Position numbers and translations under genes: made by a program. Below, piece after piece: positions 12,035 through 24,158 of a stretch of DNA of 36,157 nt; position 1 is the stretch's first letter; each line of letters opens with the position of its first letter. Below the pieces are notes generated by a model, which saw nothing but the letters and a program-made list of their open reading frames with translations, was not told the DNA's origin and searched no databases. This DNA comes from Sulfurimonas sp. (lineage in GTDB: Bacteria; Campylobacterota; Campylobacteria; Campylobacterales; Sulfurimonadaceae): positions 2,815 through 38,971 of the forward strand of contig JALWLL010000082.1 in the NCBI GenBank assembly GCA_026996295.1, in the 5' to 3' direction.

Positions 12035-12257
12035 TTCCTCAATTCGACAACCTTTCTCAAAACCACATACTTACGTACAACTCAAAAATACAAATACCAA
12101 TAGTGATTCTAATGTTACTTTATTATCAAAAAAAGTAACATTATTACAATTTTATTACAATCTATTTAAAATAATATCACTTTGGCTGTTTTTTTTAATT
12201 TACTTTTAGCTTTACATAGTATGCTTGTGTAAGTTTAAATTTTTTGGGAGGTTTACA

Positions 12258-12686
12258 GTGTCAAAGAATAATGATGAAATCAGTACTGAAGGCTTAACAT
12301 TTTTAGAAGATGGTGAAGTTTTGTATAGTGATTTGTACCTGTTGTCAGAAACAGATGAAAAGGGGATAGTTGAGTATGCAAGCGATTCTTTTTTAAAAAT
12401 AGCGAATCTAAAAGCAGAGGAGCTGATAGGGCAACCACATAATGTAGTTCGTCACCCGGATATGCCTCGTGCAGCATTTAAATCTCTTTGGGATGATGTT
12501 CAAAGTAAAGGTTTTTGGACAGGTTATGTAAAAAATGCTCGTAAAGGCGGCGGATACTACTGGGTATATGCAACGGTTTTGCGTTCCATAGATAAAAACG
12601 GAAAAACAAAGTATGTTTCCATAAGAATCAAGCCTTCACGTGAAGATATTAAAAAAGCTGAAGAGCTTTATGCAACACTAGATTAA
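12258..12686 (+). CDS. Stand-alone Aer-type PAS protein
   Basis: A 142-residue soluble protein that is essentially one PAS domain. The segment GQPHNVVRHPDMPRAAFKSL at 58-77, with R65, H66 and D68, is nearly the FAD-binding stretch of the E. coli aerotaxis sensor Aer, and the following WTGYVKNARKGGGYYWV also matches. Unlike Aer it has no HAMP, membrane or signalling domain. The start is GTG at 12258, 6 nt after GGGAGG; the upstream ATG at 12225 has no binding site. It is the first gene of the chemosensory operon, 18 nt before a receptor that lacks a sensor domain, so it probably supplies redox or oxygen input in trans. FAD versus haem cannot be decided by sequence. Confidence 0.88.
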   Translation: MSKNNDEISTEGLTFLEDGEVLYSDLYLLSETDEKGIVEYASDSFLKIANLKAEELIGQPHNVVRHPDMPRAAFKSLWDDVQSKGFWTGYVKNARKGGGYYWVYATVLRSIDKNGKTKYVSIRIKPSREDIKKAEELYATLD

Positions 12687-12704: not shown

Positions 12705-14591
12705 ATGGCATTAGTGAAAAAAAACAGTTCTAGTTCATCTCCTGCAATGATGGCTTCGGGAGGAGACAAACGTAAACAAAGAACGCTGGCAAAACAACAG
12801 CAGATCAGTGAAAGCATTGCCGGTGTTTCGATGACAATTCTTGAGAATGCACAAGAGAGTGTCAGTGCTATTGAAGAGTTAAAATCATCGATGGAGCAGA
12901 TCGCTACAGCTGCAGAGGAAAACAGTGGAGCAAGTGAACAGGCCCTTGAAAATGTAAGGGGGATCAATTCTAACGTAAATAGAATGAACTCCACAATAGA
13001 TACCGTGATATCATCTACGCTTACAACGGGTGACAATATCATGGCTTCCGTTGAAAAAATAAACGACTCTGTAGGCAGAATGGCAACGGCGGTAAAGGTA
13101 GCTGAGGAGTCTTCAACAAAAAGTGAAGAGCTCAAAGAAAGTTCACAAAATATTGGTGATGCGGTTGGATTTATTGCGAAAATTGCAGACCAGACAAACC
13201 TTTTGGCGCTCAATGCTGCCATAGAAGCAAGTCGTGCAAAAGAGCATGGAAAAGGTTTTGCAGTTGTAGCAGATGAGACTCGTGCTCTTGCGGGTGAAAG
13301 TGAAAAAAATGCTGAATTTATCTCCGAACTTGTCAACAAAATACAAGAGAGTATTGATAATATCATTAAAAGTATAGGTTCGACTACTACCATTATTGCA
13401 AATAACGGTAAAAAAGGGAACGCACTAAGCCTCAAAATGGAGGAGCTTACAAAGATTGCGGTTTACTCTGTTGAAGCAGCACGCAGCGTGAATACATATA
13501 CACAAAGGCTTGGTGATTTTGCTTCCAAGATCAACAATGGTTCTCAGGATATTGCCGCTGCATCTGCGGAGATCGCACTCTCGGTGGAGAAAACACTTAA
13601 CGGTATTGATGTCCAATCAGATGCACTTGCGCAAACAGAAGATGATATCAAAGAACTTTCATCACTGGCAGATGAGCTTAAATACTCTACAGATACCATA
13701 AAATCCGCTGAAGATATAGCGCTTTCAGCTGATACTATCGGTGCTTCCATGGATGATATCCAAAATGCCCTTGAAGATGTTACCCAAGCACTCAATCAGA
13801 TCGAATCCTCTTCCCATACAACCAACCAAAGAGCATTGACCAACAAGGAGATGATAGAAGCGGGTATTGAAGCTGCAAAAGATATCGATAAGCTTATTGA
13901 GATCGCTCGCAGAAACTTTGACCTGCTAAAGGTTTCGTTTAACAGTGTTAAAAATACAGTAGCGGAGATTCGTGAAGCATTTAGTGGTTCCATAACACAA
14001 GGGAATGAAGCTGCAACGGAACTTAATGTTATTGTCAAAGAGACAAAAAGTGTTGATAAAACCGTTGGAAACATTTCAAACTCGATTGTTCAACTCAATA
14101 TGCTTGCTATCAGTGGTTCCATAGAAGCTGCTCGTGCCGGAGACTTTGGGAAAGGTTTTGCGGTTGTTAGTGCCGATATCAGAAACCTTGCAAAAGACTC
14201 TGAGAGCAATACTGAAAAGATCAATGATATTGTTGAGTCTATGAATTCTGAGATAGACACCGTTAAAACGGACTGGAACAATCTTCTTGATTCTCAGGCA
14301 CAAGAGCAGTCATCGATTGATGGGCTTATAAATGACATAACAAAAATTACAGATATGCTCGTGGATCTGCTTGACAGATATACCGGACTCAAAGTGATCA
14401 ATGATCAAAATCTTGAGGGGATGAATCAGGTGATGATAGGGATCAGTGAGATCCAAAAAGCGGTAGAACTTAGTGCTAGAAATGCGATGGAGTCACGTAA
14501 AGCGAGTGAGCTTATTATTGAGACTGTGTCACATATCGGTGAGGGTGTAGAGGAGTTGGCTGTCATGGCTGATGAACTTCAACAGGGATAA
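12705..14591 (+). CDS. Soluble chemoreceptor with two signalling-hairpin tips (DosM-like)
   Basis: A 628-residue methyl-accepting chemotaxis protein with no membrane segment and no recognisable ligand-binding domain. Two separate hairpin tips are visible: 162-196 (DQTNLLALNAAIEASRAKE, then HGKGFAVVADETRALA) and about 459-496 (QLNMLAISGSIEAARAG, then DFGKGFAVVSADIRNLA). The second is more diverged. Each is flanked by long heptad-rich coiled coil. Two tips in one chain is the layout of V. cholerae DosM, which holds the two layers of a cytoplasmic array together. The N-terminus is Ser-rich and basic (K5, K6, K22, R23, K24, R26, K30). Strong site GGGAAAGGA upstream. Methylation sites are likely in EE/QE pairs but not assigned. 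Confidence 0.92.
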   Translation: MALVKKNSSSSSPAMMASGGDKRKQRTLAKQQQISESIAGVSMTILENAQESVSAIEELKSSMEQIATAAEENSGASEQALENVRGINSNVNRMNSTIDTVISSTLTTGDNIMASVEKINDSVGRMATAVKVAEESSTKSEELKESSQNIGDAVGFIAKIADQTNLLALNAAIEASRAKEHGKGFAVVADETRALAGESEKNAEFISELVNKIQESIDNIIKSIGSTTTIIANNGKKGNALSLKMEELTKIAVYSVEAARSVNTYTQRLGDFASKINNGSQDIAAASAEIALSVEKTLNGIDVQSDALAQTEDDIKELSSLADELKYSTDTIKSAEDIALSADTIGASMDDIQNALEDVTQALNQIESSSHTTNQRALTNKEMIEAGIEAAKDIDKLIEIARRNFDLLKVSFNSVKNTVAEIREAFSGSITQGNEAATELNVIVKETKSVDKTVGNISNSIVQLNMLAISGSIEAARAGDFGKGFAVVSADIRNLAKDSESNTEKINDIVESMNSEIDTVKTDWNNLLDSQAQEQSSIDGLINDITKITDMLVDLLDRYTGLKVINDQNLEGMNQVMIGISEIQKAVELSARNAMESRKASELIIETVSHIGEGVEELAVMADELQQG

Positions 14592-14606: not shown

Positions 14607-15971
14607 ATGCAAATAGAAGAGATATTGATCATCAAAAACGGTTCTGAACATTATGGGATATCAACAGAAGATATTAACCAAATATCCAGAGTGCCTTCTT
14701 TGATGCCTCTTCCTCTGAGACCGGCAGGTGTCAGAGGACTTTGTGCTGTTGGCGGGAACATAGTGACTATGGTTGATATGAACCTTTTACTTGATATGAA
14801 CGAGGTTGATATTGAGTCAGATAAAAGCAGGTTACTGAGTTTAAATGCACAATACTCTTCAAACTCTTTGCTCGTAAGCGAGGTGTTTAATACTATTGAA
14901 GTCGATCAAAATAATATAGAATACATAGAGAACGAGAACGATCCTGTTGTTGCGATATATAAGCATGAAGATAAATTGATACAAGTTGTGGATTTAGAGC
15001 CTCTTTTTTCTAAAATCAACAGGGTAAATATTGAAGCCAAAGAGATCAAAAACGGTAAAGTTAAAAATGAGGTTGTCAAAGAGGAAGAATCAAACAGATT
15101 TTTAATATTTTCAATGTCCAATGAAAAGTTTGCCATAAATATAGAGTACTTAAGAGAGATTATTTTATCTGATATAGAGTATACAGAGATTATTGGAAGT
15201 TCAGAAGAGATTTTGGGACTTATCACTCTTCGAGATGAGCTGATCACAGTTTTAGATATGAGAAAATATTATAATTTTGATGCTATCAAAAAAGAGAGCA
15301 ACAGAATTTTGATCATCTCACATGCTAATAAGCAGATCGGTTTGTTGATAGATGAGATAATCGATATTAAAAATTTTCCTATATACAACATAGAGTATAT
15401 GAAAGAAAGATTTGAAGATAACAAAATTTCAGGTGTGATACATAACGGTGATTCTTTAATCTCCTTTTTTGATCATGAGGTTTTAGAGAAGATTTTTGAT
15501 GAGAATGAAACATTTATAGATATAAAAGATCAGCAAGATGATACTCAGGGTTCTGAGGATATAGCTATGGAAGTGATCGTTTTTAAACTTGCAGATAAAG
15601 AGTATGCTTTTGAAGTGGAGAATGTCGCCGAGATCATAGATGCGGTAGATACTACAAAAGTAGCATATACGGATGATTTTGTAGATGGTATTATAAATAT
15701 TAGAGGACAGATTATAACCATAGTTTCCTTGTTTGATAAATTAAATATAGAGACAAAGATAAGTGAAGATTCAAAAATAATTGTTTGTAGTTTACACGAT
15801 ACAAAAATAGGTTTTGTCGTGGACAGTGTAAGTGATATTCTCAATATAAAAAAGAGTGAACTAAGAGAGCAGGAGGATGAATTGTTCTCCAATGTTTTGC
15901 ATTTGAATAATGGAAAAAGATTAGTGTTATCGATGGATATAAACCAGATAATAGCGAGTGAGGAGATATAG
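14607..15971 (+). CDS. Triple-domain CheW scaffold protein
   Basis: A 454-residue protein built of three CheW-like domains in a row: about 1-135, 160-300 and 325-454. Each shows the pattern of a short strand, I..V..I, an RGL/LGLITLR/GIINIRGQ turn followed by ITVLDM or TIVSLF, and a second beta subdomain ending in DEIID or DSVSDIL. Linkers between domains are acidic or lysine-rich. A chain with three CheW units could bridge several CheA P5 domains or receptor tips in an array baseplate. Each domain has diverged, so not all need bind the same partner. It lies 15 nt after the receptor gene and overlaps cheB by 1 nt. Confidence 0.87.
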   Translation: MQIEEILIIKNGSEHYGISTEDINQISRVPSLMPLPLRPAGVRGLCAVGGNIVTMVDMNLLLDMNEVDIESDKSRLLSLNAQYSSNSLLVSEVFNTIEVDQNNIEYIENENDPVVAIYKHEDKLIQVVDLEPLFSKINRVNIEAKEIKNGKVKNEVVKEEESNRFLIFSMSNEKFAINIEYLREIILSDIEYTEIIGSSEEILGLITLRDELITVLDMRKYYNFDAIKKESNRILIISHANKQIGLLIDEIIDIKNFPIYNIEYMKERFEDNKISGVIHNGDSLISFFDHEVLEKIFDENETFIDIKDQQDDTQGSEDIAMEVIVFKLADKEYAFEVENVAEIIDAVDTTKVAYTDDFVDGIINIRGQIITIVSLFDKLNIETKISEDSKIIVCSLHDTKIGFVVDSVSDILNIKKSELREQEDELFSNVLHLNNGKRLVLSMDINQIIASEEI

Positions 15972-17035
15972 TGTCAAAAAAAGTACTTATAGTCGATGAT
16001 TCAGCATTAGTGAGAAAACAGTTAAGTGAGATGATTGCTACGCTTGGATTTGAGATCGATTTTGCAAAAAATGGTCAAGAGGCTGTGGATAAAGCAACAC
16101 AAGAGCAGTATGATGTTATTACCATGGATATCAATATGCCTGTTATGGACGGTATAGAAGCTGTACGCCAGATCATGCAAAAACGTCCAAGTGCCATTCT
16201 GATGATCAGCTCTTTAACAACAGGGGATGCTTCTATAACTATGGATGCTCTTGATCTTGGTGCTATTGACTATATAGCAAAGCCCGGAACAATGAATGTT
16301 GGTAAAAGGGAAAACAGGGATGATATTTTAGAAAAGGTGGAGTCTTTGAGCAAAATACCTCTTAGACGTCTGAAAAGACAAGCTTCAAGACCTGCCATAC
16401 GTGAGAGAAGAACTCCTCGTCCATCACGTGAAAGAAAAGTGCAGAGTGAAAGTTCAAAAGATATAGAAAAAGTGATCCTGATCGGTTCCTCTACAGGTGG
16501 ACCGGGTCTTATTGAGCAGATATGCTCTTCACTACCTGCAAACTATAAATATCCTGTATGTATAGTACAGCATATGCCTGAGCAGTTTACCCAGGCATTT
16601 GCACAGAGACTTGATCGTTCAAGTGCTCTGCCTATACATGAAAGCCAGCATAACATGGAAGTGCTTCCGGGCAATGTATATGTAGCCAGAGGCGGGGTTC
16701 ACATGCATTTTGCCAAAAAGGTATCAGGCAAGATAGTGATACGAGAAGATAAAAATAAAGGTGAAAACTTTTTTCAACCAAGTGTCAACGAGATGATGTT
16801 TTCTGCCTTGGAAGTCTTTAAACCTGCACAACTTGTCGGGGTGATCCTGACAGGAATCGGTGATGACGGTGCTGATGCAATGGTAAAGCTCAAGCAAGCA
16901 GGTGCCTATACTTTGGCTGAAAGTGAAGAAAGTGCTACTGTTTATGGTATGCCAAAAGAGGCATATGACAGAGGCGGTGTTATGGAACAACTTAATTTTA
17001 TGCAAATTTTGAAAAAAATTGCAACATTAAAGTAA
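15971..17035 (+). CDS. cheB: Chemotaxis methylesterase/glutamine deamidase CheB
   Basis: A 354-residue response regulator enzyme that removes receptor methyl groups. The receiver domain has D9/D10, phosphoacceptor D53 in MDINMPVMDG and K104. The methylesterase domain has the catalytic triad: S174 in GSSTGG, H201 in QHMPEQF and D299 in TGIGDDGA. The linker at 131-156 is strikingly basic, with ten Arg and two Lys in 26 residues, unlike most CheB linkers. Start is GTG overlapping the upstream stop, with AGGAG just before. No CheD gene is in the operon, so CheB may be the only deamidase. Confidence 0.95.
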   Translation: MSKKVLIVDDSALVRKQLSEMIATLGFEIDFAKNGQEAVDKATQEQYDVITMDINMPVMDGIEAVRQIMQKRPSAILMISSLTTGDASITMDALDLGAIDYIAKPGTMNVGKRENRDDILEKVESLSKIPLRRLKRQASRPAIRERRTPRPSRERKVQSESSKDIEKVILIGSSTGGPGLIEQICSSLPANYKYPVCIVQHMPEQFTQAFAQRLDRSSALPIHESQHNMEVLPGNVYVARGGVHMHFAKKVSGKIVIREDKNKGENFFQPSVNEMMFSALEVFKPAQLVGVILTGIGDDGADAMVKLKQAGAYTLAESEESATVYGMPKEAYDRGGVMEQLNFMQILKKIATLK

Positions 17036-17045
17036 GGAGACTGAG

Positions 17046-17669
17046 ATGGCTTTAGTTAAAAAGCATGAACAACAAGATGTTGAAGAGTTGCCGCAATTTG
17101 ATACGCTTGAAGATGCGATAGAGTTGTTTGAATCAGATGTAGATAATGAGATGAAAGATTATGTTGTTGAAGAGATTATTAAATTTCATAATGGTGCCAA
17201 ATATCTTATTTCATATATAAACAACGAAGATGCAGATAAAGGTATTTCAACAAAAGTGGCAACAGTTATAGCCAATATGGATCCAGAAGATGCTCCTATA
17301 GAAGAGATCATGGAGTTGTTAAAACTAAATAATGCTTATGTAAGAAACCTCGGTATCTCTATTCTCAGAGATTACGGAGAGGCGATCAAGTACTACATAG
17401 TAAAGTTTTTGATCGGAGATGACAGGGATTTGAGAATATTTGCTATCAATGTACTTGGTGATGTTAATTTTGCAGAATCAAGAGATATGCTATTAGAGCT
17501 TTTAGAAAAAGAGGATGATGTCAATGTCGCAATGACTGCCGTTGATTATCTGGCAGAGATCGGAGAAGAGGAAGATATAGCTCTTCTGGAATCTTTAAAA
17601 GAGCGTTTTAGCAGTGAGTTCTATGTAGAGTTTGCAGTGGATAGCGCAATAAAAATGATAAAGGGTTAA
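17046..17669 (+). CDS. HEAT-repeat protein of the chemosensory operon
   Basis: A 207-residue acidic helical protein. Residues 85-200 show HEAT-like helical pairs with the repeated pattern of a helix, short turn and LG.../A..yL.eiG (for example AYVRNLGISILRDYG, LRIFAINVLGDV, NVAMTAVDYLAEIGEE). The N-terminal 40 residues are separate and start MALVKK, the same six residues that start the soluble receptor of this operon, with different synonymous codons. HEAT proteins are protein-binding scaffolds; here it may link the array to CheB, CheR or ParA. Function is not known to me. The gene sits between cheB and cheR with gaps of 10 and 3 nt. Confidence 0.8.
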   Translation: MALVKKHEQQDVEELPQFDTLEDAIELFESDVDNEMKDYVVEEIIKFHNGAKYLISYINNEDADKGISTKVATVIANMDPEDAPIEEIMELLKLNNAYVRNLGISILRDYGEAIKYYIVKFLIGDDRDLRIFAINVLGDVNFAESRDMLLELLEKEDDVNVAMTAVDYLAEIGEEEDIALLESLKERFSSEFYVEFAVDSAIKMIKG

Positions 17670-17672
17670 GGT

Positions 17673-18503
17673 ATGGCATATCTTTTATCAAAAGAGAATT
17701 TCTCCAAGATTGGTGAGTTTATTTATAGAAAAAGCGGTATCTATCTTGAAGAAGATAAGCACTATGAGAAGTTGGCAAAATATATAGATAAACGCTCGGC
17801 AGAGTTGGGCTTTGATAATTTTAGAAAATACTTTTTTAAACTTCGTTTTGATGATAAAGAGGGTGCAGAGTTTCAAGAGCTTATGAATGCTATTACTGTA
17901 AATGAAACATATTTCTTTAGAGAAAAAGACCAGTTTGAAGTCCTTGTTAACAGAATACTTCCCGAGCTTCACAAAACGATGCCATCTTCAAGGCCACTGA
18001 GGATTTTATCTTCTCCCTGCTCAACAGGGGAGGAACCCTACTCGATCATACTCCATATAGTGGAAGAGGGGAGTGTTGTGGAGCAAAGAGACATAGAGGT
18101 TGTCGGTATCGACATAGATTCAACAGTTATAGAAAAAGCAAAAGCAGCAAAATATACGGAGCGTTCAGTTCATGCGATTCCAAAAAATATTTTAAACAAA
18201 TGGTTTAAAAAGAAAAGTCTCGGGTATGAACTTGGTGAAGAACTACAGGGAACAGTGGACTTTCAGGTAGCAAATGTTTTTGATAAAACACAGATGAGAA
18301 AACTTGGAAAGTTTGATGTGATCTTTTCAAGAAATATGCTTATCTATTTTGATGATGCTTCCCGTAAAGAGGTTGCAATGACATTTTACGATATGTTAAA
18401 CCCGGGAGGGTATGTTCTTTTAGGACATGCAGAGTATATGAGCCGTATCGTTTCTGTATTTAAAGCAAAAAAAATCGACAATACATTGATATACCAAAAA
18501 TAG
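17673..18503 (+). CDS. cheR: Chemotaxis protein methyltransferase CheR
   Basis: A 276-residue SAM-dependent enzyme that methylates receptor glutamates. The small N-terminal helical domain spans about 1-75. The catalytic domain carries ITVNETYFFRE near residue 75, SSPCSTGEEPYSI (SAM motif I region) near 110, the acidic VVGIDIDSTVI near 140, the FDVIFSRNMLIYFD near 215 and LNPGGYVLLGHAE near 240, all typical CheR motifs. The protein is otherwise standard and has no TPR extension or pentapeptide-tether features. Start ATG 3 nt after the HEAT gene, with AAGG before it. Confidence 0.95.
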   Translation: MAYLLSKENFSKIGEFIYRKSGIYLEEDKHYEKLAKYIDKRSAELGFDNFRKYFFKLRFDDKEGAEFQELMNAITVNETYFFREKDQFEVLVNRILPELHKTMPSSRPLRILSSPCSTGEEPYSIILHIVEEGSVVEQRDIEVVGIDIDSTVIEKAKAAKYTERSVHAIPKNILNKWFKKKSLGYELGEELQGTVDFQVANVFDKTQMRKLGKFDVIFSRNMLIYFDDASRKEVAMTFYDMLNPGGYVLLGHAEYMSRIVSVFKAKKIDNTLIYQK

Positions 18504-18512
18504 GAGAGAATT

Positions 18513-18884
18513 ATGCCGTTAGTAATATTTGTAGATGACAGTGAAACAGCTTTAGCCTCAACAAGAATGGTGACAAACTCCATGCCTATAGAGGTAAAAC
18601 AATATACACAGGCACAAGATGCCTTAGCTGAGATCCAAGCAGGTATGACACCGGATCTGATCATAACAGACCTTAACATGCCGGTGATGAACGGTTTTGA
18701 GTTTTTACAGGAGCTTCGCAAAGTGGAGGCAACGAAAAGAACACCGTGTTTGATGCTCACAACAGAAACAAAAGCGGAACTGAAACAACAGGGAAAAGCA
18801 CTAGGACTGACCGGATGGATCGTAAAACCATTTAATCCGGCTCAGTTAAAGCAGGCAATAGCAAGAGTTTTGAGACTCTCATAA
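18513..18884 (+). CDS. Single-domain response regulator, CheY-like (first of two)
   Basis: A 123-residue receiver with D8/D9, phosphoacceptor D53 in TDLNMPVMNG, the Thr of MLTTE and Lys of VKPF, so it should be phosphorylatable by the CheA of this operon. No output domain is present. The gene follows cheR by 9 nt with AGGAGA as ribosome binding site. Because two receivers are encoded, one may act as output and the other as a phosphate sink; sequence does not say which. Confidence 0.9.
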   Translation: MPLVIFVDDSETALASTRMVTNSMPIEVKQYTQAQDALAEIQAGMTPDLIITDLNMPVMNGFEFLQELRKVEATKRTPCLMLTTETKAELKQQGKALGLTGWIVKPFNPAQLKQAIARVLRLS

Positions 18885-18898
18885 AATAAGGTGTAATT

Positions 18899-19282
18899 AT
18901 GTTTTCTTCAATGAGCCATCTTTTAGAACATATACAAGAGATCGAAAAAGAGATTATTGAACTCTCTGAAAAATCCACATTGGTTTTTGGTGAACTTATA
19001 GAAAAAAATTCTATTGAGGTTGATGAACAGGTTACTCAAGTACTACAGCGTCAAGATATGATATCTCAGCAGCTCAATGCGACTGTAGATGCTATTGAAG
19101 AGGCAAAAAGAAGTATACAAAAGTGCCAAGTGGGTATACAAAACGATGCTCAGTCTGTGCAGAGGGAGCTTGAAGAGCTTGATCGGGCACTGCAAAATAT
19201 TCTTGTTAATGCCAAAGAGAAAAAAGAAGCGTATTCTGGATATTTTCATTCTCAAAATGATAATGAAATAGAATTTTTTTAG
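18899..19282 (+). CDS. Small coiled-coil protein, candidate CheZ-like phosphatase
   Basis: A 127-residue protein, almost entirely helical with heptad patterning in 1-110. The helix around residues 48-62 reads VLQRQDMISQQL: D53 and Q57 form a D-x3-Q pair preceded by Gln, the spacing of the CheZ active site (D143 and Q147 in E. coli, in QDLTGQ). The last residues, DNEIEFF, are acidic and aromatic, like the CheY-binding tail of CheZ. It lies between two CheY-like genes, the natural place for a CheY phosphatase. It is shorter than CheZ (about 200 residues), and the assignment rests on one motif, a tail and context. Otherwise it would be a structural coiled-coil protein of unknown role. Confidence 0.6.
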   Translation: MFSSMSHLLEHIQEIEKEIIELSEKSTLVFGELIEKNSIEVDEQVTQVLQRQDMISQQLNATVDAIEEAKRSIQKCQVGIQNDAQSVQRELEELDRALQNILVNAKEKKEAYSGYFHSQNDNEIEFF

Positions 19283-19290
19283 GAGTAATT

Positions 19291-19656
19291 ATGTCAACAA
19301 TAATGGTAGTAGATGATTCAAAAACAGTAAGAAATTATCATGGTTCAATACTCAAATCGATGGGTCTTGATGTTTTAGAAGCTGAAAACGGTATGGAAGC
19401 ATTGGAAAAAAGTCTCAACGAAGAGGTGGACATGTATTTGGTTGATGTTAATATGCCTATTATGGACGGTTACTCTTTTGTGCAGGATCTTAGAAAGCAA
19501 GATGCTCATAAATTTGTGCCTGTCATTATGATAACAACACAGGCCAAAGAGGAAGACAAATTAAATGCTTACAAGGTTGGTGCAAATCTTTTTGAAACAA
19601 AGCCTATAAAGCCAAATCAGCTACAAGCATATATAGACATTTTAGTAAAGAGCTAG
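19291..19656 (+). CDS. Single-domain response regulator, CheY-like (second of two)
   Basis: A 121-residue receiver with D8/D9, phosphoacceptor D52 in VDVNMPIMDG, Thr of MITTQ and Lys of TKPI. It is complete and should accept phosphate from CheA, whose gene starts 9 nt downstream. Its alpha4-beta5 face differs from that of the first CheY-like protein, suggesting a different partner. The nature of the output (motor or other) cannot be read here. Confidence 0.9.
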   Translation: MSTIMVVDDSKTVRNYHGSILKSMGLDVLEAENGMEALEKSLNEEVDMYLVDVNMPIMDGYSFVQDLRKQDAHKFVPVIMITTQAKEEDKLNAYKVGANLFETKPIKPNQLQAYIDILVKS

Positions 19657-19665
19657 GGGGATAGT

Positions 19666-22380
19666 ATGGATCCGTTATTAGAACAGTTTTTAAGTGAAGC
19701 AAGAGAAAATTTAGCATTTATAGATCAGAACATAGAGGAGATCGGCGGTGATGACCCTGAACTTCTCAACTCCGTATTTCGTGCCGCACATACACTCAAA
19801 GGTGGGAGTGGTATTGTCGGGTTTGATTCTGTAAAAGATATTACACACCATGCAGAAGATCTTCTGGATATGCTTAGAGCCGGAAAAATTGACTTTGCCG
19901 ATAGTATGACAGAAGCACTTTACAACGCTTTTGATGAGGTTATGAACCTTGTGGAGGCTGCCGAAGAGAGTGGTGATATCGTTGAAGCTGATGAAGATAC
20001 GGTTGCGATGATTATTGAAGATCTTAATACTCAGATGGGAAAAACAGCAAAGGTTGAGACAAGCTGGGAAGTTCCTTTTTTACAGGTGGATAATGTTGAG
20101 GATGTTGTCAATATCCCACTTACAACGCTTAGAGGTGTTGATTCACCAAAGTTGGCGTTTGTAAATCCGCAGCTTGATGAGGAGTTTTGTGCGAAGGATA
20201 ATTTCTATGCTGTTGTTTTTGATATAGATGAATCATGTATGGTATATGGGAATGATCCGGTGTATACACTCTCACTTCTTGGTGATAAAGTTCGTGGTGT
20301 TTACTCTTGTATGAGTGATGAAAATGCAAAGTCTGTTTTAAGTGGCATAGATGATGAAGATGGTCTGCTTCTGAAGTCAAAACTCGTGGCTTACATATAT
20401 GCAACATATGAAGATATAGAAGATTCTCTTTTTAACTTTATAGATGAATTACAGCTTTTACCTTTAGATATTGTAACACTCTTAGGTGTAAGCACCGGAG
20501 AGAGCGGACATCAAATAGATCTGCTGAAAGAACTTGCAAATGTGAGTGACAATGATAAGGCAAGCATAGTTGAAAAAGTGGAAAAGTCGATGGAACTTGT
20601 TGGTGTAGAAACACTTCAGTACGCGCAACTTCAACGCTTCTTAGATATAGCCGGACTGATTAAAGATGAGGGTATTGTAAAACTTCATAGTTTCTTTGCA
20701 AATCTTTACAAGGGAGAGGTCTATAAGGGCTCACAAGATATACAAAGCGAGACTCCAACTACTATAGAAGAAAAAGCTACACAAGAACAAGTACAAGAGA
20801 GTACTACAGAAGATCTGCAGACGCTAGAGGTAAGTGCAGATGTTCAAGATGTACTTGATGGTATGATGGAGCAACAATACAAAGCTCTTGATATGATAGA
20901 AAATGAGGATGATCTGCAAAGGGTGATCGTTATTATGGATAAAATGAGAAAGTATCTACCTCAAATACCGGCATCATTTAGTTCTAAAGAGGAGATACAA
21001 AGCTTTTTATCAGAGCAACTTGGTATTTCACAAGAGGAGAAAGAGCCTCAAGAATCTCAAGAAGCTCAAGAGGTTTCAGCTCCCCCTGCAGAGCAAAAAG
21101 TTGTTGAGCAGATTGAAAAAACACCACAGGTAAAAGTTCCCAAAAAAACTGCTCCAAAAGAGGAGAGTAAAAAAGCTGTTGTTGGAAAAACTGTGAAGAT
21201 AGACCAGGAGTCGATCGACTCGCTTATGAATGTTGTAGGGGAGCTGCTTGTTGCTAAAAACTCTTTGCCGTATCTTGCCGATAATGTTTCAGAAATGAGT
21301 CACGACATGATAAAACGTGAGATCATGGAGAAGTATATTTTTATCAACCGTTTGTCTGAACAGCTCCAAGATCTTATCATGGGTATGAGAATGTTACCTA
21401 TCTCATATGTGTTTGACAGATATCCTAAACTTGTTCGTGATATTGCCAAAAAACTTGGTAAAAAAGTGAAACTAGAGATGGACGGCGGTGAAACAAAACT
21501 CGATAAGAACATGATCGAGATGTTGGCTGATCCAATGATTCATATTATGAGAAACTCCCTTGATCACGGTATCGAAACACCCGAAGTAAGAGAGCAAAAA
21601 GGTAAAAACCCTACAGGAAAAGTTACCTTGAGTGCTTATGCCCAGTCTGACAGGATAGTTATAGAGATAGTAGATGACGGTGCGGGGATTAATGTTGAAA
21701 GAGTTGCAAACAAGGTTCTTGAAAAAGGGCTGATGACACATGAGCAGATCGATGCGTTGAGTGAAGATGAGATGGCAGAACTTGTGCTTCTTCCAGGACT
21801 CTCTACAGCAGATGAGATCAGTGAGTACAGTGGTCGCGGTGTTGGTATGGATGTTGTAAAAAAATCTATTGAGAGCTTTGGCGGCAGTATCAAGATAAAG
21901 ACAAAAGCAAACCAAGGTACTACGATCACCTTGGCGATACCTGTTTCTTTGGCTGTAACATCACTTCTGCACATTCAAATGAACGATATTCACTATGGTA
22001 TCCCTATGGACAGTGTCAGCGAGACTGTGAAGCTTGAGCGTGATGAGATCGAGTATTTACATAATGAACCTTTTGTTTATATTCGCGGTGAGGTTATTCC
22101 GCTGCTCTTTATCAAGTCGATGCTTAATGAAGAAGCTATGGAGAATGAACCACTTTCTATTGTAGTGCTCAACATAAAAGATAACCTTTTAGCTGTTGTT
22201 GTCAACAAATTTTTGGGTCAGTTGGATGTTGTGCAAAAACCGCTTGTGGGTATTATGGAGAACCATCCACTTTTTAGCGGTACTGCACTTCTTGGAAATG
22301 GAAAGATCATCATGGCAATCGATCCTATAGGACTTTTGGGAATTTCGCAGAAATTAAAAGAAGATATACAAGTAGCTTAA
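19666..22380 (+). CDS. cheA: Chemotaxis histidine kinase CheA, long form
   Basis: A 904-residue kinase, about 250 longer than E. coli CheA. P1 (HPt) holds H42 in RAAHTLKGGSG. Residues 145-280 form an extra domain of the type found in other long CheAs (FYAVVFDIDESCMVYG, then DPVYTLSLLG). A low-complexity acidic and Gln-rich linker spans about 360-500. P3 dimerisation starts near 507 (DQESIDSLMNVVGELLVAKN), P4 kinase has the N box MIHIMRNSLDHG near 625, DDGAGI near 670 and GRGVGMDVV near 725, and the P5 CheW-like domain fills 760-904. There is no C-terminal receiver. It would phosphorylate both CheYs, CheB and possibly the downstream regulators. Confidence 0.95.
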   Translation: MDPLLEQFLSEARENLAFIDQNIEEIGGDDPELLNSVFRAAHTLKGGSGIVGFDSVKDITHHAEDLLDMLRAGKIDFADSMTEALYNAFDEVMNLVEAAEESGDIVEADEDTVAMIIEDLNTQMGKTAKVETSWEVPFLQVDNVEDVVNIPLTTLRGVDSPKLAFVNPQLDEEFCAKDNFYAVVFDIDESCMVYGNDPVYTLSLLGDKVRGVYSCMSDENAKSVLSGIDDEDGLLLKSKLVAYIYATYEDIEDSLFNFIDELQLLPLDIVTLLGVSTGESGHQIDLLKELANVSDNDKASIVEKVEKSMELVGVETLQYAQLQRFLDIAGLIKDEGIVKLHSFFANLYKGEVYKGSQDIQSETPTTIEEKATQEQVQESTTEDLQTLEVSADVQDVLDGMMEQQYKALDMIENEDDLQRVIVIMDKMRKYLPQIPASFSSKEEIQSFLSEQLGISQEEKEPQESQEAQEVSAPPAEQKVVEQIEKTPQVKVPKKTAPKEESKKAVVGKTVKIDQESIDSLMNVVGELLVAKNSLPYLADNVSEMSHDMIKREIMEKYIFINRLSEQLQDLIMGMRMLPISYVFDRYPKLVRDIAKKLGKKVKLEMDGGETKLDKNMIEMLADPMIHIMRNSLDHGIETPEVREQKGKNPTGKVTLSAYAQSDRIVIEIVDDGAGINVERVANKVLEKGLMTHEQIDALSEDEMAELVLLPGLSTADEISEYSGRGVGMDVVKKSIESFGGSIKIKTKANQGTTITLAIPVSLAVTSLLHIQMNDIHYGIPMDSVSETVKLERDEIEYLHNEPFVYIRGEVIPLLFIKSMLNEEAMENEPLSIVVLNIKDNLLAVVVNKFLGQLDVVQKPLVGIMENHPLFSGTALLGNGKIIMAIDPIGLLGISQKLKEDIQVA

Positions 22381-22393
22381 GAAAGGTTGTACT

Positions 22394-23158
22394 ATGACAG
22401 ATTTGATCGTCTTTGGTATCGGAAATAATCGATATGCTCTTAAAATTGACAATATTCAAAGGATTATTCAGTCCGTTGAGTTGACGGATATTCCAAATGC
22501 ACATGAACTTATCGATGGGATGATGTCCTATGAAGGCAAGGTCATAAAAGTTTTAAATTTTCGTAAGTTGATTGCTTTGCCGATGTATGAAGATGAATTA
22601 CGAAAAAAGTTTGCAGAGTTAAAGGTTGCTCATCAAAACTGGGTGGATGAACTTAGAGATTCCATCTATAAGGGAGTACCTTTTACAAAAACAACAAACC
22701 CCCATAAATGTGAACTTGGCATTTGGTTAGATGGTTTTAAATCTGTTGATGAGGTGATAACAGCCATACTCAATGAACTTGTAAATAATCATAAACAGTT
22801 GCATATGCTTGGTGCTGAAGCTTTAGAAGTATATAATAGCGATATTGAAAAAGCCAAAGAGATTGTAGATCAAGAAGTGGAGTTAAAATTTCATCAGACT
22901 ATGGCAGCAATCGATACGTTTATAGCCAAGTTGAGCAGTGTTGCAAACTCTTTGCAAAAACTGATACTCTATGAAAAAAATGAAAAATATTTTGCCATAA
23001 AAGTGGATACGATTGAGGATATTGCACATATTGAAGAAGATGCTGTTATGCGTTCAGAGGAATCACACGACTTTGGTGAACTTCTGGAACTTGAGGGTGT
23101 TTTAGATATGGGCGGTGTTTTGATAAATGTTATAAAAAATATAGATATTCCAAATTAA
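22394..23158 (+). CDS. CheW domain split by an inserted CZB zinc-binding domain
   Basis: A 254-residue protein. Residues 1-65 are the first half of a CheW domain (LIVFGIGNNRYALKIDNI, then MSYEGKVIKVLNFRKL). Residues 70-185 are a helical CZB domain with its 3-His/1-Cys zinc set visible: H80 in HQNW, C106 in HKCELGIWL, H133 and H137 in HKQLH. Residues 188-254 resume with the second CheW subdomain (LILYEKNEKYFAIKVDTIED). CZB domains bind zinc and sense zinc or hypochlorous acid in chemoreceptors and diguanylate cyclases. Here the sensor sits inside the coupling protein, so it could change array assembly or kinase coupling directly. Gene lies 13 nt after cheA. Confidence 0.85.
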   Translation: MTDLIVFGIGNNRYALKIDNIQRIIQSVELTDIPNAHELIDGMMSYEGKVIKVLNFRKLIALPMYEDELRKKFAELKVAHQNWVDELRDSIYKGVPFTKTTNPHKCELGIWLDGFKSVDEVITAILNELVNNHKQLHMLGAEALEVYNSDIEKAKEIVDQEVELKFHQTMAAIDTFIAKLSSVANSLQKLILYEKNEKYFAIKVDTIEDIAHIEEDAVMRSEESHDFGELLELEGVLDMGGVLINVIKNIDIPN

Positions 23159-23167
23159 GGAGATATA

Positions 23168-23437
23168 ATGGCAATTACATATGAAGCGAATGAAGCAATC
23201 TTTTCATCAGTGATATATGAAGATGAGATTCCTAAGTTCAGGGATTTTTTACAAGAAAAAGCACCGGATGAAGTTCTTTTGAACTTTGAAGAGTGTGAAG
23301 ATGTTCATTTGGCTGTGTTGCAGCATATTATGGCATATAAAAAAAATTATACCTGTACATATAAGTTTGGTAATGAAAAAAAGCTCTTTGAGACAGTTCT
23401 AAAAGGATTTGATACGAGTGAAAACCATTGTAATTAG
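23168..23437 (+). CDS. Small protein overlapping parA, possibly STAS-like
   Basis: An 89-residue soluble protein. The alternation of predicted strands and helices (IFSSVIYEDEIPKFRDFL, DEVLLNFEECEDVHLAVL) resembles a compact alpha/beta fold of STAS type, and the stretch NFEECEDVHLAVLQHI looks like a conserved core, but I do not recognise a named family. It has a good AGGAGAT ribosome binding site and its last 20 nt overlap the parA coding region, so the two are translationally coupled. Context makes a regulator or adaptor for the ParA ATPase, or for the array, the best guess. Confidence 0.65.
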   Translation: MAITYEANEAIFSSVIYEDEIPKFRDFLQEKAPDEVLLNFEECEDVHLAVLQHIMAYKKNYTCTYKFGNEKKLFETVLKGFDTSENHCN

Positions 23438-24158
23438 TAATCGTAAAGGTGGTTCTGCAAAAACAACGACAGCTGTTAATATTGCAAGTGGTTTGGCAAA
23501 ACAGGGTTCTGTGTTACTTTTAGATTTTGACACACAGGGACATGCTTCCATCGGTGTCGGTTGTGAACCAAATGAGCAACTGGGTGTTCATTCTATTTTT
23601 ACGGGAACAACGCTTAGTGAGACCTTTATCCCTACAGTTCATGAAAACCTGACACTCTCTCCCGCACTCGCTTTTTTTGATGTATATGAATACTCTGATC
23701 TAAGAGGAGTACTGAAAAGTCGTTTTAAAAGGGAAAAAATAGCAGAGTTTTTTGACTATTGTGTGATCGATACTCCCCCAACCTTTGATGCACTTTTAAA
23801 AAATTCCTTGGAAGTTGCCGACAGTGTTGTAATCCCTTTTGTTCCACACCATTTAGGTGTAGTTGCAGTGGGACAGATGCTACGTGCCGTGTATCAAAGT
23901 GCTTCTCATTTTGAGCGTGAAATCGCGGATGTGTCTATTTTGCCGGTAATGTATAACCCTCATATCAATGAGCATAAAGACTCAATCGCCAAAGTGAAAA
24001 CATCTTTTGGTGAAGAAAAACTGCTCTCACCCATAGGTGTAGATATTAAACTCGCACAACAGTTTGAATCAGGCTCCCCCATCATTTTGGATACAAAACG
24101 ATCTAAAGGGCTCAAAGATTATCAACGATGTGTTGCAGAATTACTTAAAAGACTGTAG
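23418..24158 (+). CDS. ParA/MinD-type ATPase of the chemosensory operon
   Basis: A 246-residue deviant-Walker ATPase. The A motif is NRKGGSAKTTTAVN, with signature K10 and K15; the usual GKTT glycine is Ala here. Walker A' is LLLDFDTQG and Walker B lies in YCVIDTPPTFDA. There is no N-terminal DNA-binding domain and no ParB or parS nearby, so it is an orphan of the type that positions cargo (R. sphaeroides PpfA for cytoplasmic chemoreceptor clusters, Vibrio ParC for polar ones). The start chosen is GTG 23418, 10 nt after AAAAGGA and giving MKTIVISNRKGG; the TTG at 23409 is too close to that site. Likely cargo is the soluble array. Confidence 0.88.
   Translation: MKTIVISNRKGGSAKTTTAVNIASGLAKQGSVLLLDFDTQGHASIGVGCEPNEQLGVHSIFTGTTLSETFIPTVHENLTLSPALAFFDVYEYSDLRGVLKSRFKREKIAEFFDYCVIDTPPTFDALLKNSLEVADSVVIPFVPHHLGVVAVGQMLRAVYQSASHFEREIADVSILPVMYNPHINEHKDSIAKVKTSFGEEKLLSPIGVDIKLAQQFESGSPIILDTKRSKGLKDYQRCVAELLKRL

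Follow-up and report, generated by a model that had tools for sequence, protein, structure and literature searches.

The locus

The window (36,157 nucleotides of Sulfurimonas DNA, the whole stretch that was analyzed) carries a group of chemotaxis genes, all on the forward strand. At its head lies dosM (12705..14591), an ATG-initiated open reading frame for a 628-residue chemoreceptor of the DosM type, that is, one with a double signaling domain. It is preceded by a gene for a PAS protein (12225..12686) and followed by genes for: a triple CheW (CheW3; 14607..15971), which is the hallmark of the F9 class and matches in three CheW stretches (E 5.4e-66); CheB (15971..17035); a HEAT-repeat protein (PF13646; 17046..17669) that is kept in F9 clusters including those of Proteobacteria; CheR (17673..18503); a first CheY-like receiver (18513..18884); a 127-residue protein (18899..19282); a second CheY-like receiver (19291..19656); a CheA of the F9 class with Hpt, dimerization, ATPase and CheW domains (19666..22380); and a fusion of CheW to the zinc-binding CZB domain (22394..23158). 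CheB, CheR and both receivers were assigned with Pfam. The full F9 set (DosM, triple CheW, CheA, CheB, CheR and two CheY-like proteins) is present here, in an order that is conserved across loci. Other contigs of the same genome encode a second CheA and additional CheW-type proteins, so that the F9 array is an extra chemosensory system of this organism.

Three of the neighbors call for separate remarks. Almost every F9 cluster of the Campylobacterota has the CheW-CZB gene; a separate gene of this kind was not seen in the Proteobacteria and Aquificota F9 clusters examined. The 127-residue protein between the two CheY genes has no reliable family match (sub-cut-off matches only in Pfam, none in NCBIfam); it is weakly conserved, at about 32-46% in most relatives, yet is encoded in most Campylobacterota F9 clusters. 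A ParA/MinD-like ATPase is encoded behind the F9 genes (23409..24158), and near F9 genes in Alteromonas also; its role may be to place the cytoplasmic array in the cell or to partition it.

A sensorless receptor with two signaling domains

Pfam matches the MCP signaling domain (PF00015) in two separate stretches of DosM (E 1.3e-50 for the entire protein; 2.9e-29 and 9.6e-19 for the stretches scored singly in a genome search). The motif GKGFAVV is found twice, at residue 182 and at residue 482, placing the two tips exactly 300 residues apart. The halves of the protein (21-326 and 327-628) align colinearly, with 27% identity over 182 residues (BLASTP, E 5e-14), as a tandem duplication. No other Pfam domain rises above cut-off (a WXG100 match falls below it), and neither a HAMP nor a sensor domain was found by Pfam over the whole protein; the highest 19-residue hydropathy is 0.94, which signifies the absence of a membrane segment. 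Orthologues are 59-89% identical within Campylobacterota and about 30% (27-34%) identical in Proteobacteria and Aquificota. The genome is Sulfurimonas-like, the nearest relatives in the search coming with few exceptions from Sulfurimonas or Sulfuricurvum assemblies, and only three DosM proteins were found across 247 genomes of the Alteromonas order.

That 12705-14591 encodes a DosM orthologue in an F9-class cluster can be regarded as practically settled. The preliminary description, made from the letters of the sequence, had already noted two separated tips about 300 residues apart, each with its GKGFAVV, and the absence of sensor and membrane domains, and had likened the protein to DosM of V. 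cholerae. These observations stand: the domain search, of which a single MCP signaling domain had been named as a refuting outcome, finds two, and the comparison with DosM goes beyond resemblance, to orthology inside a full F9 cluster. In PMC9321776, a paper on this phylum, the combination of a DosM with double signaling domains and a triple CheW is described as unique to F9; 98% of DosM proteins are stated there to be without sensor domains and to need additional sensory input.

The PAS gene upstream of dosM

If DosM does not itself sense, what does? The gene directly upstream suggests a candidate. It encodes a PAS protein of the Aer/CetB type (about 153 residues from a TTG start that is uncertain), and its stop codon lies 18 nt before dosM. 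The protein matches the PAS structure of Aer (8DIK) with an E value of 1.3e-28, 50 of 120 aligned residues being identical. The residues of Aer that contact FAD are H53, R57, W70, N85 and R115 (PMC9668731); each is conserved in 68 or 69 of 69 PAS sequences, including the one in the window.

Among the 69 Campylobacterota loci that have enough upstream sequence, a PAS gene directly precedes dosM in 68, with a gap of 9-19 nt in 63 of those 68; in the remaining locus (L068) the PAS gene is in place and the DosM reading frame is interrupted. Since these loci share ancestry, the 68 adjacencies represent far fewer independent events: the linkage is an inherited trait of Campylobacterota. A PAS gene beside dosM is mostly absent from the Proteobacteria and Aquificota F9 clusters examined, and such a protein is therefore not required for F9 arrays generally. 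(Two side observations belong here. Loci L026, L027 and L028, from relatives, encode a second, diverged type of DosM, of 27-30% identity and next to a triple CheW gene in two of the three; no PAS gene lies within the 1.5 kb examined. In the Proteobacterial F9 cluster L156 (1-5300) there are two Aer-type PAS genes, one beside CheR and the other between CheB and the triple CheW.)

A separate PAS protein that serves an MCP has a precedent in CetB/CetA (PMC2628428; PMC12442639). The CetB/CetA layout is seen in the same genome, where two other PAS genes each precede a sensorless membrane MCP; the nearest paralogue of the PAS gene (55% identity) likewise has a membrane MCP gene directly behind it. 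We propose that in Campylobacterota the sensorless DosM is served by its neighbor, a CetB-type PAS protein with FAD as its predicted ligand, which would attach to DosM and signal redox or energy state. The linkage taken together with the conserved FAD contacts makes it probable, though by a modest measure, that DosM is supplied with a redox signal in trans from this source.

The strongest competing explanation is that the PAS protein is a co-transcribed, CetB-like sensor for another receptor, a membrane MCP of the other chemosensory system for example, and is linked to dosM by expression alone. The genome does hold further CetB-like genes and sensorless membrane MCPs. CetB is, moreover, believed to work through a HAMP domain, of which DosM has none, and F9 clusters elsewhere usually do without a PAS gene. 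Against this stand the tight spacing, the linkage in 68 clusters and its persistence in three loci (L038, L041 and L050) where the PAS-dosM pair is intact despite rearrangement of the other F9 genes; the two other PAS-MCP pairs seen in the genome, for their part, possess adjacent PAS genes of their own. We consider service to another receptor to have perhaps one chance in a few, and continue with the PAS protein as the putative input of DosM.

Two unlike halves

The signaling tips were compared in a diverse set of 36 DosM sequences from three phyla, including Alteromonas, other Proteobacteria and Aquificota. Tip 1 (residues 162-188; 13188..13268) is canonical, DQTNLLALNAAIEA...GKGFAVV, and its residues L380, N381, A382, E385 and R388 (Tsr numbering, here and below) are invariant in all 36. 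Tip 2 (residues 462-488; 14088..14168) reads VQLNMLAISGSIEAA...GKGFAVV, and the altered key positions that had been remarked on in this one protein (LNMLAISGSIEAA versus TNLLALNAAIEAS) are real and belong to the family: A382G and L380V/I are found in 36/36, L377M in 31/36, and serine at position 381 in 16 rows, mostly Campylobacterota; E385 is retained in 36/36 and R388 in 35/36.

What might the divergence be for? In E. coli, positions of the hairpin contact CheA and CheW. One suggestion is that tip 2 binds a different coupling protein (one of the three CheW3 domains, or the CZB fusion), in which case the two layers of the array would differ in composition. The conserved differences A382G, L380V/I and N381S do fall at or near the contact positions, and the cluster encodes several CheW-like domains from which a partner might be drawn; the retention of E385 and R388 in tip 2 speaks against a changed partner. 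The suggestion strikes us as improbable, although a preference for a single domain of the triple CheW is conceivable. The version in which tip 2 diverged for CheW-CZB, one of two examples given in the preliminary description, was considered and rejected: the same tip-2 differences occur in Proteobacteria and Aquificota clusters in which no separate CheW-CZB gene is seen, so that the divergence does not indicate CheW-CZB as the partner.

The halves differ also in a putative site of adaptation. A consensus methylation site, ATAAEENSGA (residues 67-76, around E71/E72; 12903..12932), is recognized in half 1 by the pattern [AGST]2xx[EQ]2xx[AGST]2, for which 0.175 chance matches are expected per shuffled DosM. 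The motif is present in 33 of the 36 diverse sequences and in 76 of 81 aligned DosM homologues. Its counterpart in half 2 (residue 343) is kept in most Proteobacteria and Aquificota rows and lost in the Campylobacterota type. The confinement of this predicted methylation site to half 1, in this clade, is new, and it makes half 1 look like the adapting side of the molecule. We envisage a division of labor in which half 1, retaining its canonical tip and methylation site, would adapt, and half 2, whose tip is peculiar to the family and which in this clade has lost the consensus site for methylation, probably serves mainly as a structural anchor.

Spacing, helix break and the proposed arrangement in the array

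The main set comprised 80 loci from GTDB genomes, with 76 full-length DosM proteins and 4 truncated or broken copies. The distance between the tip glutamates is 300 residues in 75 of the 76, and 299 in one (from Hydrogenothermaceae); it is 300 or 299 throughout the diverse set of 36. An inter-tip spacing of 300, rarely 299, residues in all of the full-length homologues measured by sequence, across three phyla, is a new observation. The stretch between tip 2 and the C-terminal end is likewise nearly constant in length. The 300 residues between the tips give about 150 per half, near the 22 heptads expected of a helix in the 44H length class, to which DosM may belong.

The AlphaFold2 monomer (mean pLDDT 88.8, pTM 0.62) consists of helices at residues 22-325 and 331-627 with a break between them, at 326-330 (13680..13694). 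Homologues and heptad phase place a discontinuity at the same point: the break coincides with a conserved ELK-STD motif (ELKYSTD here) in which distant DosM proteins have a glycine, a proline or a one-residue deletion, and the hydrophobic heptad phase slips by about one residue. The break, the variation of the motif and the phase shift together give DosM the look of two half-receptors joined tail to tail. A single unbroken heptad helix running from tip to tip was also considered and is unlikely on account of the register shift at 326-330. The C-terminal half of the model (325-628) aligns with the chemoreceptor structure 2CH7 over 304 residues (3.3 A, Z 13.7); the earlier supposition that the second region folds as an antiparallel tip is borne out by this match, which implies that tip 2 is an antiparallel hairpin.

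How would such a molecule be arranged in an array? DosM of V. cholerae is described as an extended rod with a signaling domain at each end, joining two CheA/CheW layers (PMC7534058). In V. cholerae arrays these layers are 35 nm apart; two E. coli Tar fragments placed end to end hold baseplates 31 nm apart (PMC3964821). A rod spanning the 300 residues between the tips of DosM would be about 45 nm long. We take the Tar construct, by our own estimate, to be about 39 nm long, and with an offset similar to Tar's a 45-nm rod is plausible at the 35-nm spacing.

The proposed architecture is then the following: two tandem MCP hairpins, joined at the conserved helix break, would form an elongated homodimer with one tip in each of two facing layers of CheA and triple CheW, the spacing of the layers fixed by the 300-residue inter-tip length. 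By analogy with V. cholerae, it is highly likely that DosM is a rod bridging two CheA/CheW layers; two-layer bridging by DosM rods as such is already published biology. The least probable of the alternatives, that the chain turns back at 326-330 and packs its hairpins against each other as an intramolecular pseudo-dimer, with both tips in one baseplate and no bridging, can appeal to the interruption of the AlphaFold2 chain there, to structural matches with TTYH, ClyA and PilJ that span residues ~100-562 and 20-628 and suggest adjacent hairpins, and to the register shift at a break that accepts glycine, proline or a deletion, but single-chain prediction lacks a dimer partner and is biased toward collapse, the side-by-side arrangement is itself read from those matches, and both the published extended rod and the fit of a ~45-nm rod to the 35-nm spacing oppose it, so that we regard it as very unlikely. 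The reading as a whole, an F9 DosM rod with unequal halves and FAD-PAS input from the upstream gene, is held with considerable confidence.

A peptide shared by DosM and the HEAT-repeat protein

DosM begins with MALVKK (12705..12722), followed by a disordered Ser-rich linker (pLDDT <50), and the HEAT-repeat protein begins with the same six residues (17046..17063). A loose pattern, M-small-[LIVFM]-x-[KRNQ], fits DosM in each of the 82 loci where its N-terminus is intact, and it fits 76 of 77 HEAT proteins; the one exception, MGLRKR, differs solely in its fourth residue. The pattern was allowed throughout the first 75 residues and is permissive for that reason. Eight of ten other cluster proteins match it in two loci or fewer, against 8 loci of 81 for CheB and 54 of 81 for CheY1 (whose own start is MPLVIFV). 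More telling are a stricter pattern and the joint variation of the two peptides. The stricter pattern, applied to the DNA of the 2.1-Mb genome, has four occurrences, of which only those of dosM and the HEAT gene open genes; the other two run into stop codons within a few codons.

The two peptides vary together in Alteromonas (MALKKS on DosM, MGLKKK on HEAT), and in L133 both have isoleucine at position 3 (MAIVKK and MSIVKK); in the Proteobacterium L156 the peptide is present on DosM and absent from HEAT. Both N-terminal tails are predicted to be disordered (pLDDT 45 for HEAT residues 1-11). We take MALVKK to be a candidate docking peptide by which DosM and the HEAT-repeat protein would engage one common partner. 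Self-inhibition like that of importin-alpha, in which the groove of the HEAT protein would be occupied by the protein's N-terminal peptide, was considered as well and is unsupported, residues 1-11 being predicted to be disordered.

What the locus offers

Under standard conditions the F9 system of V. cholerae, whose DosM is without a sensor, shows no clear phenotype (PMC7534058; PMC9321776). Receptors with two tips are, as a type, well established; the real leads at this locus are the PAS linkage and the shared N-terminal peptide, and the inequality of the DosM halves is also worth following. A literature search conducted largely outside subscription journals found no publication on the PAS-DosM pair or on the shared peptide.

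Three things follow. 1) The FAD-PAS gene that accompanies dosM in a large clade is a concrete and testable candidate for the input of F9 arrays. 2) The constant 300-residue spacing and the unequal halves make array spacing and adaptation accessible to experiments with length variants. 3) The peptide common to DosM and HEAT points to an undescribed interaction of the F9 array. One can go further and tentatively picture the Campylobacterota F9 double-layer array as a redox sensor with an FAD-PAS protein seated on DosM and MALVKK docking to a common partner; the picture has somewhat less than an even chance of being right in its entirety.

Comparison with known systems

The F9 sets of Campylobacterota described in the available text of PMC9321776 are partial ones, from Nitratiruptor and Nautilia. 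Both have DosM and the triple CheW, as does the present cluster, which, in contrast to them, is a full set and encodes a CheA of its own, two CheY-like proteins, CheB and CheR. The DosM of the V. cholerae F9 system (VC1403, cluster I) likewise has two tandem signaling domains, lacks sensor and membrane domains, and adjoins a triple CheW; the Sulfurimonas system differs in its upstream PAS gene, in the serine of tip 2 at Tsr position 381 and in a half 2 without a consensus methylation site, differences for which the comparator, in place of the V. cholerae protein, was Alteromonas DosM (~32% identical).

CetB/CetA of Campylobacter jejuni (and CetBA2 of Magnetospirillum) likewise pairs a single-domain PAS protein of the FAD type with a sensorless chemoreceptor, and the PAS and dosM genes are adjacent and closely spaced (18 nt in the window), as are those for CetA and CetB. 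CetA, however, is membrane-bound and has a HAMP domain and a single signaling domain, whereas DosM is soluble, double and without HAMP. Lacking the transmembrane hairpin and the HAMP domain, the PAS-DosM pair is not to be filed as CetAB, and is only possibly CetAB-like in its action. With Aer of E. coli (PAS structure 8DIK) the upstream protein has its PAS sequence and FAD-contact residues in common; in Aer the PAS domain is fused to the receptor, while here it is separately encoded.
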